Shown here: piece by piece, positions 2,960 to 35,370 of the stretch | Position numbering within the stretch: position 1 is the stretch's first letter | Layout of the letters: the number at the start of each line of letters is the position of its first letter | Origin: a virus | Length of the DNA: 35,370 nt | Direction: 5' to 3' (one strand) | Virus record (IMG/VR): IMGVR_UViG_3300050138_000076 | Span: 1-35,370 of that record | Made by a program: the position numbers and the translations under genes | Notes under the pieces: model-generated | Databases searched by the model: none | Seen by the model: only the letters and a program-made list of their open reading frames with translations | What the model was told of the DNA's origin: nothing

Positions 2960-3005
2960 TTGCTTTACGTGCAGCATGGTATTATATTGTATGCGTAAAT
3001 ACAAT
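2960..3005. promoter_or_regulatory. Divergent promoter region with palindromic operator
   Basis: The sequence ATTGTAT-GCGTAA-ATACAAT (2986-3005) is a perfect inverted repeat with 7-bp arms and a 6-bp spacer. A leftward -10 (TATAAT on the minus strand, 2986-2981) abuts it. A rightward promoter is possible with TTGCTT at 2960-2965, a 17-bp spacer and TATATT at 2983-2988. The RHH gene reads left and a 40-aa gene reads right. A repressor bound here could block both directions. Motifs are seen directly; promoter function is inferred. Confidence 0.55.
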
Positions 3006-3006
3006 G

Positions 3007-3029
3007 TTTTCCACAGATTTTGTGGATAA
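3007..3029. promoter_or_regulatory. Pair of inverted DnaA-box-like sites
   Basis: TTTTCCACA at 3007-3015 and TGTGGATAA at 3021-3029 face each other across five bases. The second is, on the minus strand, TTATCCACA, the consensus DnaA box; the first differs by one base. They lie between the operator palindrome and the 40-aa gene, so host DnaA could affect early transcription or help open a replication site. Only two boxes are present, which is few for a full DnaA-driven origin. Confidence 0.45.
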
Positions 3030-3281: not shown

Positions 3282-3620
3282 ATGAAAATAATCCCGCCCT
3301 ATAGCAAACCTTTGCATGATCTGCAACTCACCGGGCATGCGCCTAAAAATTCTATTTATATCTGGATTGGGAACAATGCCTGGATCAAAGGCAAATCATT
3401 TTCCGCAAGTCAACCAACACGCAATATTGTTTTACCACCATGGGATGCGCCAGAGAAATATAAATGGCCTGTGTTCGAGTGCGATATTCTCATACAAGAT
3501 ACTGGGTATGCTGAGTTAGACTATGTTACAGATTTAGTTTTCTGTTTATATCAGGATGGGGCAAGCATAGTTAGATACGTTGCCCCGGATTTTACTTTAA
3601 CCGTCTTCCACAAGGATTAG
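3282..3620 (+). CDS. Conserved-looking phage protein of unknown function, 112 aa
   Basis: A soluble, aromatic-rich protein (SIYIWIGNNAWIKGKSF near residues 24-40, then LPPWDAPEKYKWPVFECDI). It looks like a compact beta-rich domain. AAAGGT six bases before the ATG is a reasonable ribosome site. Its TAG overlaps a GTG start of the helicase gene, so the two are co-transcribed. Such a gene just before a RepA-like helicase suggests a replication accessory role, for example a loader or initiator. This is context only, as I do not recognise a family. Confidence 0.75.
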   Translation: MKIIPPYSKPLHDLQLTGHAPKNSIYIWIGNNAWIKGKSFSASQPTRNIVLPPWDAPEKYKWPVFECDILIQDTGYAELDYVTDLVFCLYQDGASIVRYVAPDFTLTVFHKD

Positions 3621-3625
3621 TGTAC

Positions 3626-4801
3626 ATGAAACACAAGAATGATAAAAGTTTATCTCAATTAAAACCATCGCAACAATTTACAGATCGTCTCGTAACACTT
3701 TCTGAATTTGAAATCTATCAACCAAATTGGATTGACCTCACAAAAGTTGAAATAAAATCTCAACCTTGGTTATGGCAAAATGTAATTCCGCTGGAAACGT
3801 CTATGCTTTTAGCAGGTGCTGGCGGCATAGGTAAATCCACTTTATTGCTATTCATAATTGCAAAAGTAACGAGTGGAGAATTATTCAATTGTTGCGGTGA
3901 TGATGTCATTTTGCAAAAAGGTCATGTTATTTTATTAGCTGCTGAAGATCGTGAAGATACGTATTTAGTGCCTAATTTACTAGCCGCTGGCGCTGATCTA
4001 TCAAAAATACATTGTATAAAATCAAAGATTGGGTGCGTTTCCGGGAAGAGTAAGTTTTTAGAATTAGACAAAGATTTAGACGTTATAGAACAAAAATTAA
4101 TTGAATTACAAAAGCAAGGTAATCATGTCAAATTAATGGTGATAGATCCTATCACCTATTTCACTGGCGAAACAAAAGATCATATACAAACTGAAGTCGC
4201 TAATTTCATACAGTCACTAACGGACTTGGCACAATCTTATGGGATGGCACTTATATTAAATAAACATCTGCGTAAAAAATCTGGAAAACAATCTGTGTCA
4301 TCTGTTGTTGACGAAGTCGGCGGCTCTGCGGCCTGGGTTAATACACCACGACAGGCATTCGTTGTCATGCGTCACCCAGAAAATGAAAATAAAATTTTAA
4401 TGTTTAATTTAAAAACCAATCTTACAAAACGAAAAACCGAAGCATATTGTTACACGATAGAACAAACTGAAATACAAGCAAGTAATGGAATTTTTCAAGC
4501 AACTAAACTTGTATGGTCAGACAAAAAAGAAACGATAGGGATTGAAGAAGCATCTAACAAAGAATTATTCAACAAATCTAAAGGAGATCATGCGCAAGAT
4601 ATAATTCATTATCAGCTAAACAACAACGGTGCCACTTCCATAGAAAACTTAAAAGAAATATGTGAGAAGCAGGGCATATCGGAACGAACGTGCCAACGTG
4701 CCTACCTTTCCATGGAAAAGGAAAATACAATAAGGCGTCAAAAGGGTACTATTAAACCACATTTTGAATTGTCAGACGGTTGGCACGGTGACAATAAATG
4801 A
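3626..4801 (+). CDS. RepA-like hexameric replicative helicase (AAA_25 type)
   Basis: A 391-residue RecA-fold ATPase. GAGGIGKST at residues 64-72 is Walker A and KLMVIDP at 169-175 is Walker B. LNKHLRK (211-217) and GGSAAWVNTPR (232-242) match the later conserved motifs of RSF1010 RepA/KaiC-like helicases. The last 70 residues have the look of a winged helix (SIENLKEICEKQGISERTCQRAYL), a likely DNA-contacting tail. A GTG start at 3620 is possible, but ATG 3626 has AAGGA nine bases upstream and was preferred. The 3' end of the gene already carries GTGCCA/TGGCAC repeats (4690, 4781) that continue into the candidate origin. It probably unwinds the phage origin. Confidence 0.85.
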   Translation: MKHKNDKSLSQLKPSQQFTDRLVTLSEFEIYQPNWIDLTKVEIKSQPWLWQNVIPLETSMLLAGAGGIGKSTLLLFIIAKVTSGELFNCCGDDVILQKGHVILLAAEDREDTYLVPNLLAAGADLSKIHCIKSKIGCVSGKSKFLELDKDLDVIEQKLIELQKQGNHVKLMVIDPITYFTGETKDHIQTEVANFIQSLTDLAQSYGMALILNKHLRKKSGKQSVSSVVDEVGGSAAWVNTPRQAFVVMRHPENENKILMFNLKTNLTKRKTEAYCYTIEQTEIQASNGIFQATKLVWSDKKETIGIEEASNKELFNKSKGDHAQDIIHYQLNNNGATSIENLKEICEKQGISERTCQRAYLSMEKENTIRRQKGTIKPHFELSDGWHGDNK

Positions 4802-4848
4802 TCATTATTTTGGGGGGTGTCTCCTGTGGTGGCATGTTGGGGGTATGT

Positions 4849-5081
4849 TGGCACGGGCACGGTAAAACCCACGTCCGGCGCAGCCTGCCAGCGTGCCAAG
4901 GCAAGTGCCAACAGCGTGCCATCTGGCATGTTGCTGTATATTAGTGGTACAACTGCGTGCCATTTGGCACGTGCTTGGCACGCCCTTGGCACGTATATAT
5001 ATATAAGTAAAATCATATATTTATATATATATATACCAGCAACGTGCCAACGTGCCACGGGATACACCACACCCTTGGCAC
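4849..5081. other. Candidate replication origin: GTGCCA repeats around an AT-rich tract
   Basis: This 316-base gap after the helicase gene has no convincing gene. It contains eleven copies of GTGCCA or its complement TGGCAC, starting at 4849, 4893, 4905, 4916, 4957, 4965, 4976, 4987, 5044, 5052 and 5076. Most fit CGTGCCAA or its complement. Two more lie in the helicase gene at 4690 and 4781. Copies at 4956-4971 form the perfect palindrome CGTGCCATTTGGCACG. An almost pure A/T tract with TATATA runs (4993-5036) sits between the repeat groups, as a DNA-unwinding element would. Iteron-like repeats next to a helicase gene are the known layout of many phage and plasmid origins. The role is inferred; the repeats are seen directly. 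Confidence 0.65.
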
Positions 5082-5117
5082 GCGCTTACTTTTTAACCAT
5101 GACATGAGGGACACGAA

Positions 5118-5384: not shown

Positions 5385-5605
5385 AAAACGTACAAAAATG
5401 CAATCTTGCAGATCATGATAAGAAAATGGATTTTCTAAAGCAGCTGTACACGACAACCGCGACAACCGCACCACAAGCCCAAGGAGGGGTTATCCATGAA
5501 ATTACCGATCCTAATGCCAACGGAAGACAAAGAAGCCATGGAGCTCATACAATTAGTCCAGGGACTGCCTATGGTACGGGATCTGATATTCCACGTGCCA
5601 AATGA
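5381..5605 (+). CDS. Doubtful small ORF overlapping the nuclease gene
   Basis: A 74-codon frame with a GTG start inside the end of the 88-aa gene and AAGGA nine bases upstream. Its first 38 codons (MKNVQKCNLADHDKKMDF...) occupy DNA not used by another gene. The last 36 overlap the nuclease gene in another frame and look like shadow sequence (Gly/Thr/Arg-rich). It may be a real short coupling peptide or only a leader region carrying the AAGGAGGGG site of the nuclease gene. Confidence 0.3.
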   Translation: MKNVQKCNLADHDKKMDFLKQLYTTTATTAPQAQGGVIHEITDPNANGRQRSHGAHTISPGTAYGTGSDIPRAK

Positions 5606-5906
5606 AGGTCGCAGAAGCCTAATGCTCGGAAATAAACTCAAACGCATGGGTGTGCGAAAGGGTGTGAGCGACTATTTCTTGCCGCTCCCAGTCCCCGGCT
5701 ATCACGGTCTCTGGATAGAACTAAAACGCGTGAAAGGCTCGAAGACCACCGACGAGCAGCTTTCATGGTTGAAAAAAATGCATGACTTGGGGTACATGAG
5801 CTGTATTTGCTATGGCGCCGAACACGCTTTTGATACAATAAAAAAGTACATTGAGCGTATGCAAGACTGCAACGCAATATACGCGCACATTAATAATCAA
5901 GGATGA
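5496..5906 (+). CDS. VRR-NUC domain nuclease
   Basis: A 136-residue PD-(D/E)XK nuclease of the VRR-NUC type. HVPNEGRR (about residues 33-40) carries the early conserved Glu. GVRKGVSDYFLPLP (about 53-66) carries the catalytic Asp. LWIELKR follows (about 73-79) with the E-x-K pair, and then TTDEQLSWL. Phage VRR-NUC proteins of this size act as structure-specific or junction-resolving endonucleases in replication and packaging preparation. AAGGAGGGG seven bases before the ATG is a near-perfect ribosome site, suggesting high expression. It lies between the replication and lysis genes. Confidence 0.85.
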   Translation: MKLPILMPTEDKEAMELIQLVQGLPMVRDLIFHVPNEGRRSLMLGNKLKRMGVRKGVSDYFLPLPVPGYHGLWIELKRVKGSKTTDEQLSWLKKMHDLGYMSCICYGAEHAFDTIKKYIERMQDCNAIYAHINNQG

Positions 5907-7709: not shown

Positions 7710-7799
7710 GGAGTGAATGGAGTGAATGGAGTGAATGGAGTGAATGGAGTGAATGGAGTGAATGGAGTGAATGGAGTGAATGGAGTGAATGGAGTGCGG
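7710..7799. repeat. Tandem repeat, nine exact copies of 9-bp GGAGTGAAT plus a partial
   Basis: Nine perfect copies occupy 7710-7790, followed by GGAGTGCGG. Reading it as a protein gives an Ile-His-Ser chain on the minus strand, but that frame has no ATG and no ribosome site, so I treat it as non-coding. The GGAG in every unit resembles ribosome sites but there is no start codon for them. Copy number is likely to vary by replication slippage. Confidence 0.9.
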
Positions 7800-7840
7800 T
7801 AAATTATGAATCGCTATCACAAAATTATCCAAAATAGTAG

Positions 7841-7866
7841 GGGTAAGAAAAATTTCTTTTCACCCC
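7841..7866. other. Imperfect hairpin before the terminase genes
   Basis: GGGGT-AAGAAA pairs with TTTCTT-ACCCC with a two-base bulge. It could end transcripts arriving from the left or act in the leader of a terminase transcript. Evidence is complementarity only. Confidence 0.35.
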
Positions 7867-7941
7867 GATACTTTATTTACAATCTACATTTAAAAAGGGC
7901 TAATCTGTTAAAAATAGGTTGATTACGTTTATGTGACATTC

Positions 7942-7970
7942 TTTACAATCTGTGTTAATGAGCGTATTGT
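7942..7970 (+). promoter_or_regulatory. Possible late promoter before the terminase genes
   Basis: TTTACA (7942-7947), a 17-bp spacer and TATTGT (7965-7970) form a fair sigma70-like promoter 21 bases before the small terminase ATG. The ten bases TTTACAATCT also occur exactly at 7876-7885, again with a GCTAAT 17 bases further on. The duplication suggests two tandem promoters or a shared activator site. Confidence 0.35.
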
Positions 7971-7991
7971 TATATTTATTATCAATTTGCA

Positions 7992-8393
7992 ATGGATTTG
8001 CACAATATGACTGCTGGACATCCTTTAACTTACAAAGAAGACGTGCATTTTAAAAAGCTTGTCGATGGCGTGAAGATTGCATTGACGCTTAACAAGACTG
8101 CTGAGTTATGCATGCTATCTCCTTCTACTTTCAAGGATTGGGTATTGCAGGGACGTAAAGATTTAAGCAATGGTTTAGATACACCGCTAGCCAAATTGTC
8201 GGCTAATATAAGAGCAGAGCAGTCAAAAAAAGCCATAAATTTAATGAATGAGATACAGGAATCACCCGAGCGTTGGCAAGCGCTTGCGTGGATTTTAGAA
8301 CGCTGTTTTCGCGAAGATTTTGGAGCTGATGCAGGCATCATTCAAGAGCTAAAAGAGAAATTCGAAGAACTCGAAAAGAAAATGGAGAAGTAG
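7992..8393 (+). CDS. terS: Terminase small subunit
   Basis: A 133-residue protein with an N-terminal helix-turn-helix (NKTAELCMLSPSTFKDWVLQGR, about residues 34-55) as in DNA-recognising small terminases. A helical middle follows, including AWILERCFREDFG, and a charged coiled tail (ELKEKFEELEKKMEK) likely joins the oligomer or contacts the large subunit. It recognises the phage packaging site and stimulates the large subunit. No clear ribosome site precedes ATG 7992; ATG 8007 is an alternative. Its position ahead of the large terminase agrees with the role. Confidence 0.75.
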   Translation: MDLHNMTAGHPLTYKEDVHFKKLVDGVKIALTLNKTAELCMLSPSTFKDWVLQGRKDLSNGLDTPLAKLSANIRAEQSKKAINLMNEIQESPERWQALAWILERCFREDFGADAGIIQELKEKFEELEKKMEK

Positions 8394-34451: not shown

Positions 34452-34694
34452 TTAGCCGGAGCCTTCGCCGTCGCCGTTGCCATAGCCGGAGCCGTCGCCG
34501 GAGCCGTAGCCGTCGCCATAGCCGGAGCCGTCGCCGTCGCCGTAGCCGGAGAAGTCGCCGTCGCCGTAGCCGGAGCCGTCGCCGTATCCGTATCCGTCGC
34601 CGGAGCCGGAGCCAGAGCCAGAGCCAGAGCCGTTGCCGTAGCCAGAGCCATAGCCAGAGCCGTTGCCGGAGCCAGAGCCGTCTAGGATTCCCAT
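34452..34694 (-). CDS. Gly-X repeat small protein (array copy B)
   Basis: An 80-residue member, MGILDGSGSGNGSGYGSGYG at the start. It has Gly-Ser, Gly-Tyr, Gly-Asp and some Gly-Asn/Glu pairs, and a phase slip 'GDGDFSGYG' identical to that in copy A. It is preceded by AGGAATTTAAAAT and ends with TAA ahead of the 108-aa gene's ribosome site. It may be a flexible, strongly hydrophilic filler or binding protein. Role unknown. Confidence 0.7.
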   Translation of the reverse strand: MGILDGSGSGNGSGYGSGYGNGSGSGSGSGSGDGYGYGDGSGYGDGDFSGYGDGDGSGYGDGYGSGDGSGYGNGDGEGSG

Positions 34695-34719
34695 ATTTTA
34701 AATTCCTAATATGAATTAT

Positions 34720-34977
34720 TTAGCCGTCGCCGTCGCCGGAGCCGGAGCCGTAGCCGTAGCCGTCGCCGGAGCCGGAGCCGTAGCCGTATACGTCGCCGTA
34801 GCCGGAGCCATCGCCGTATACGTCACCCTAGCCGGAGCCGTCGCCGTATCCGTATCCGTAGCCGGAGCCGTCGCCGTATCCGTATCCGTCGCCGGAGCCG
34901 GAGCCGGAGCAGTCGCCGTCGCCGTAGCCGTAGCCGGAGCAGTCGCCGAAGCCGGAGCCGTCGCCTATGATTCCCAT
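34720..34977 (-). pseudogene. Gly-X repeat gene copy C with internal stop
   Basis: The frame starts MGIIGDGSGFGDCSGYGYGD (Leu-4 replaced by Ile) and would read to the TAA at 34720-34722. A TAG at 34828-34830 stops it after 49 residues; the frame beyond is open as GDVYGDGSGYG. It could therefore produce a 49-aa short form. The rest of the unit and its ribosome site (AGGAATTTAAAAT) are intact. Confidence 0.7.
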
Positions 34978-35002
34978 ATTTTAAATTCCTAATATAAATT
35001 AT

Positions 35003-35215
35003 TTAGCCGGAGCCTTCGCCGTCGCCGTTGCCATAGCCGGAGCCGTCGCCGGAGCCGTAGCCGTCGCCATAGCCGGAGCCGTCGCCGGAGCCGTCGACAT
35101 AGCCAGAGCCGTAGCCGTCGCCATAGCCGGAGCCAGAGCCAGAGCCAGAGCCGTTGCCGTAGCCAGAGCCATAGCCAGAGCCTTCGCCGTCGCCGTCGCC
35201 GTCTAGGATTCCCAT
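35003..35215 (-). CDS. Gly-X repeat small protein (array copy D)
   Basis: A 70-residue member beginning MGILDGDGDGEGSGYGSG. It shares its C-terminal end (GYGNGDGEGSG) and the segment GSGSGSGSGYGDGYGSG with small changes relative to copy B. One phase slip reads GYVDG. Ribosome site and start are as in the other copies. Function unknown. Confidence 0.7.
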   Translation of the reverse strand: MGILDGDGDGEGSGYGSGYGNGSGSGSGSGYGDGYGSGYVDGSGDGSGYGDGYGSGDGSGYGNGDGEGSG

Positions 35216-35240
35216 ATTTTAAATTCCTAATATGAATTAT

Positions 35241-35370
35241 TTAGCCGTCGCCGTCGCCGGAGCCGGAGCCGTATCCGTAGCCGGAGCCGTCGCCGTATCC
35301 GTATCCGTCGCCGGCGCCGGCGCCGGAGCCATCGCCGTAGCCGGAGAAGTCGCCGTCGCCGTAGCCGGAG
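35241..35370 (-). CDS. Gly-X repeat gene copy E, C-terminal part only
   Basis: The minus frame enters at the right edge and stops at TAA 35241-35243. It reads SGYGDGDFSGYGDGSGAGAG, followed by a Gly-X end identical in its last six codons to those of A and C. Its start lies outside the window or, if the sequence is circular, at position 6. The direct join is not in frame (ATG GGA then one extra base), consistent with some bases missing in the repeat. Confidence 0.65.
   Translation of the reverse strand, partial: SGYGDGDFSGYGDGSGAGAGDGYGYGDGSGYGYGSGSGDGDG

Follow-up and report, generated by a model that had tools for sequence, protein, structure and literature searches.

The iterons of PICIs come in two sets, invariably placed on either side of an A/T-rich region, and a cloned pri-rep-ori segment replicates (PMC6092414). 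According to the same authors, this organisation is known from no other bacterial replicon (PMC6092414). The SaPI Rep protein binds iterons located directly downstream of its own gene via its C-terminal domain, and the C-terminal domain of Cch2 acts likewise (PMC7581432). A similar arrangement was found in the virus record of 35,370 bases analysed here in its entirety (the window). With a probability of roughly 85%, the region 4688-5083 is a replication origin, and the helicase encoded at 3620-4801 most likely serves as both initiator and replicative helicase, reading the word ACGTGCCA via a winged helix. The origin reading of the array is strongly supported by comparison of related sequences, and is best understood as a theta-type origin that a self-loading initiator helicase would bind and open.

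The window contains P22-like head genes (portal, PHROG 156; scaffold; coat; terminase). The portal is about 25% similar to those of P22-like phages, and no similarity was found between the window DNA and known phages. Satellites borrow the capsid of a helper, whereas the window encodes its own terminase, portal, scaffold and coat. The genes below approximately 3.0 kb, which include those of Sak4-like and SSB-like proteins, point leftward. From 3.28 kb the genes are oriented rightward in the order p112 (a 112-aa protein), AAA_25 helicase, repeat region, VRR-NUC nuclease (5496-5906), lysozyme, terminase and structural genes. The cumulative GC-skew minimum of the window is near 3000, but it was set aside as origin evidence because gene direction diverges there. 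The divergent intergenic region contains two DnaA-box-like sites (3007-3029), TTTTCCACA and, on the other strand, a perfect TTATCCACA, which together form a hairpin; DnaA-box-like sites showed no overall enrichment across the window. Irregular hexamer-like G+C-rich repeats (GCCGGAGCC/GCCGTAGCC) are present near both record ends (23-290 and 34465-35361) and read as an Ala/Val/Gly-rich frame. They may represent a single tract split by assembly; an exact terminal repeat longer than 15 bases was not found at the record ends. Between the lysis genes and the gene of the terminase small subunit there is a tandem repeat with AATGGA words (7716-7996, tandem fraction 0.89).

The word GTGCCA/TGGCAC occurs in 13 exact copies within 4690-5081 (392 bases), seven on the plus and six on the minus strand. 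Dinucleotide shuffles of this region gave a mean of 0.71 and a maximum of 5 copies (n=2000), shuffles of the whole window a mean of 0.16 and a maximum of 2 (n=200). The recount thus agrees with the first-pass annotation, which had described the copy number as far above chance. Twelve of the exact copies are part of CGTGCCA, and nine of CGTGCCAA. With a motif model, 17 ACGTGCCA sites were found, distributed over the two strands between 4688 and 5083. As noted earlier, the first repeats fall within the helicase gene (sites at 4688-4706 and 4781-4787); the array ends near 5083. It encloses a 42-bp core (4994-5035) of 95% A+T, flanked by sequences of 42% and 45% A+T, which is a candidate DNA unwinding element. 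The A/T tract had been described as lying in the middle of the repeats. Its composition was borne out, but it is off-centre: most copies are to its left, and only three (5042-5083 by the motif model; a tandem pair at 5042/5050 on the plus strand and a single site at 5076 on the minus strand) to its right.

The helicase gene (3620-4801, plus strand) starts with GTG at 3620 or ATG at 3626 and codes for 393 amino acids. The protein matches AAA_25 in Pfam (2.1e-23) and primase/helicase in PHROG (2.6e-14), and has the Walker A motif and the RecA fold expected of AAA_25; no primase domain match was obtained in Pfam. Foldseek matches, from a search that covered the ATPase part, include RSF1010 RepA (1nlf, 1olo) and DnaB (4esv). 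In the AF2 model residues 312-382 (encoded by 4559-4771) form, in this order, a helix, a short strand, two helices and two strands, with pLDDT of about 75-88. This order of elements is that of a winged helix, predicted with moderate AF2 confidence and proposed here as the iteron reader; Pfam HTH matches to the C-terminus were weak and below cut-off.

Searches of viral and genome contigs with the helicase alone yielded no close relative. The coat protein opened a route to the relatives that these searches had missed. A search with it gave 80 contigs with 78-85% identical coats, and three of the 26 larger coat-related records encoded the same helicase at 37-46% identity. An alignment of these first relatives led to further loci, bringing the total to 13 distinct helicases (the window and 12 others, all on IMG/VR contigs); when genome contigs were searched with the family alignment, nothing was found. 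All 13 loci have a three-part cassette: the p112 gene, then that of the helicase, then an array of repeats that includes an A/T tract. In most relatives the A/T tract is 167-274 bp past the helicase stop codon, and in five of them (L131, L132, L136, L137 and L144) a pair of copies follows 3' of the tract, as in the window. VRR-NUC relatives were also inspected with tblastn, and no helicase of the window's family was detected. No array was seen in the stretches examined of the distant AAA_25 relatives L045, L047, L049 (which ends at the record end) and L050.

The arrangement is not restricted to this helicase family. In two records containing p112 the AAA_25 helicase is replaced by a VapE-like helicase, with arrays of ATGACACC and CCTGTCAC. 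In one further p112 record the helicase is of a second AAA_25 type, with a tail that is clearly an HTH, and the array consists of AGTGTACA. In other coat relatives (G005, G006, G016 and G020) p112 was undetected by family search, and a primase-like protein precedes the helicase. That of G020 matches Toprim_3, and the others align to it. The arrays behind the helicase genes of these relatives are built of GATTCA, CTTAAC, GAGACA and GGTTAA; that of G016 has no clear A/T core inside. Among 21 coat-related records surveyed (19 whole, two half), every non-tandem array that had nine or more copies, distributed over both strands, and an A/T run of 20 or longer was located at the 3' terminus of a helicase gene. 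Motif scores exceeded the shuffle mean in all 16 systems compared, and each also exceeded the best of 20 base shuffles. By exact 6-mer counts, 10 of the 13 arrays surpassed all 500 dinucleotide shuffles; the arrays of L135, L138 and L149 are degenerate and were not significant in this count. The same scan also recovered the annotated origin and the crr repeats of phage P4. The replication-origin layout proposed in the first-pass annotation is shared by all 13 examined members of the helicase family and by the relatives with the VapE-like and second AAA_25 helicases.

Other short elements were noticed near some of these loci. Pattern matching located the 16-mers TGTTCCACATAGAACA/T in three related phage records (L133 at 3478, L136 at 1898 and L179 at 767). 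These closely resemble the consensus of the bacterial centromere parS. In L133 and L136 the 16-mer is flanked by the array on one side and the VRR-NUC gene on the other, and CGTGAAACAATTTCGTGAAACA is found after the array in L134, L147 and L149. Both elements are possibly host ParB sites or a promoter element.

The word of the array differs or diverges between relatives, with TGAGCA, AGTCCCA, TGATCGC, GGCAAAC, CAGTCTAC and CGGTCA among the variants. In full, the window's ACGTGCCA corresponds to TTGCTCAT in L131, GGGACTGG in L132, TAGCGATC in L133, ATGGGCAA in L134, CACATGAG in L135, GTTTGCC-type words in L136-L138, CAGTCTAC in L144, TTATCGCT in L147, ATAGGGAT in L149 and CATTCGGT in L154. Lack of conservation of the repeats in relatives had been named beforehand as an observation that would speak against an origin. 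Taken literally, the word is indeed not kept, but the architecture is; and what had been suggested to be a new iteron family appears instead to be one of many word variants of a single origin design.

Arrays were compared in pairs for sites that agree in position and strand. Each pair was permitted a single offset and a single flip of orientation, and nulls were obtained by shuffling gaps and strands. Between the window and L144, whose words are unrelated, 12 of 13 sites coincided in position and strand (null mean 5.4, maximum 8, n=1000). The window and L131 had nine common sites (null maximum 8), and L131 and L134 had eight (null maximum 7). Over all 120 pairs the mean number of coinciding sites was 4.8, compared with 3.8 in the null; conservation of geometry is thus strong in a subset of pairs and weak in many. 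The agreement among L136-L138 is uninformative because they are near relatives. An array can thus keep the spacing and orientation of its sites even when the word is entirely replaced. A tentative extension, which we consider somewhat less probable than its opposite, is that the origin is 'rewritable': site number, spacing and strand would be fixed, and the word at all sites would switch together with the reading domain of the helicase, even to unrelated sequences. If so, such joint switching of origin specificity would prevent co-infecting relatives, or their satellites, from exploiting one another's replication machinery.

The p112 gene (3282-3620, plus strand) immediately precedes the initiator helicase gene and is its conserved partner: a homologue occupies this place at all 13 AAA_25 loci and also precedes the VapE-like and the second-type AAA_25 helicases. 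No match to p112 was found in phages, PDB sequences, Pfam or PHROG, and the match in BFVD was one uncharacterised protein of an uncultured Caudovirales (59% identity). The AF2 model has a pLDDT of 94. Its best structural matches were the DnaG polymerase domain (5guj, Z 7.5, 101 aligned residues, 3.8 Å) and T7 gp4 (6n9u, Z 7.4, 95 aligned, 3.2 Å), although Z values below 8 may reflect a common arrangement of elements; phosphoribosyltransferases scored lower (Z 6.1). Identification of p112 as a TOPRIM primase is not supported by sequence profiles, and the fold match is weak: hhalign against the TOPRIM-like primases of sister phages gave a probability of 0.3%, there is no Pfam match, and the p112 alignment has neither a Glu before the first-strand Gly30 nor a D-x-D. 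The position of p112, in the place otherwise taken by a primase gene, is no more than a hint. Co-transcribed with the helicase, it is perhaps a conserved partner for priming or loading.

The first-pass annotation had left the choice of initiator between the helicase tail and the 112-aa protein. Iteron similarity correlated with winged-helix identity among the 13 helicases (Mantel r 0.59, p 0.0004) more closely than with ATPase identity (r 0.44), and the partial correlations were 0.50 for the winged helix and 0.27 for the ATPase. The correlation with p112 identity was not significant (r 0.14, p 0.12). Common ancestry of the 13 proteins inflates such correlations, and the C-terminal tail of the helicase, rather than p112, is therefore favoured as the sequence reader but not proven. 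It is unlikely, though conceivable, that the array is an origin whose repeats are read by p112 or a host factor that recruits the helicase, in the manner of lambda O or RSF1010 RepC. Such a role would fit the stronger conservation of p112 relative to the helicase and its occurrence with three helicase types, all of them with arrays. It does not fit the word, which follows the divergence of the helicase C-terminus and not that of p112, nor the arrays of the four coat relatives that have a primase-like gene in place of a detectable p112; and a host factor would leave the different word in each virus unexplained.

Functions other than replication were given much less weight. Two-stranded iterated sites also occur in operators and centromeres, and a sigma70-like match is present at 4986-5013. 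However, this match does not stand out from the number expected by chance, shuffled sequences contain promoter-like sites at least as often, none of the scanned proteins was recognised as a partition protein, and the A/T core and the place behind the helicase gene recur with several helicase types, all of which makes a transcriptional operator or a partition site improbable. Least probable of all, and contradicted by the comparison of relatives, is the chance presence of neutral low-complexity or mobile repeats behind the helicase gene. Other simple-repeat tracts do exist in the window, but the strongest of these word clusters (23-290, 7716-7996 and 34465-35361) are tandem or one-stranded, whereas this array is irregular and two-stranded, is found at the corresponding position in 16 systems and in some pairs keeps its positions despite different words.

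With the region 4688-5083 taken as an origin, we infer the following course of initiation. The C-terminal winged helix of the helicase would bind the ACGTGCCA sites flanking the A/T core, and oligomers assembled on both flanks would melt the core (4994-5035). RecA-fold rings could then load at the melted core and unwind outwards, together with the host polymerase and primase.

Several known replicons share part of this design. Phage lambda has its iterons within gene O, halfway along the gene; its initiator is no helicase, and the host DnaB is recruited by P. The likeness consists in iterons beside an A/T-rich region at an initiator gene, and no homologue of O or P was found in the window. RSF1010 has a RecA-fold hexameric helicase (1nlf, 1olo) and an iteron origin, but a separate iteron-binding protein, RepC, whereas in the window the predicted winged helix is part of the helicase itself, at its C-terminus. 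In the Corynebacterium plasmid pCG2 (NC_004534) an AAA_25 domain is likewise combined with a two-stranded array directly 3' of the replicase gene; unlike in the window, Prim-Pol is fused to the helicase and the replicon is a plasmid. The pCG2 array (CATACA/TGTATG, at 2377-2626 of L048) is behind the Prim-Pol/AAA_25 gene of this natural replicon, and a function of the array was not found in the literature searched. Phage P4 is similar in its 8-bp repeats on both strands and in the location of crr directly 3' of the alpha gene. It differs in that alpha is a primase-helicase fusion, while the window helicase has no primase domain match, that function is split between crr and a distant ori, and that its word contains GGTGAA.

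The SaPI/PICI pri-rep-ori segments resemble the window in having short, element-specific iterons in two sets around an A/T-rich region, directly behind the gene of the initiator helicase, and a second small replication gene upstream. Iteron recognition by the C-terminal domain of Rep may have its counterpart in the predicted winged helix of the window helicase. In contrast to these islands, the cassette of the window is found in full P22-like phages, which encode terminase, portal and coat themselves, its helicase is AAA_25 (or VapE-like in relatives) and not of the DUF927 or D5/Primase_C types of SaPI Rep, and p112 takes the upstream place of the AEP primase. By strong analogy, the window origin appears to work like those of the PICI/P4 type while being outside the SaPI Rep family, with a different helicase and in a full phage. 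The 16 initiator/origin pairs, with different words and one architecture, represent a natural experiment on the evolution of initiator specificity and on the code between winged helix and iteron. They also yield a rule by which phage origins can be located in sequence data: inspect the DNA that immediately follows the gene of the initiator helicase. A type of origin described as exclusive to satellite islands (PMC6092414) would thereby extend to full phages with other helicase families.
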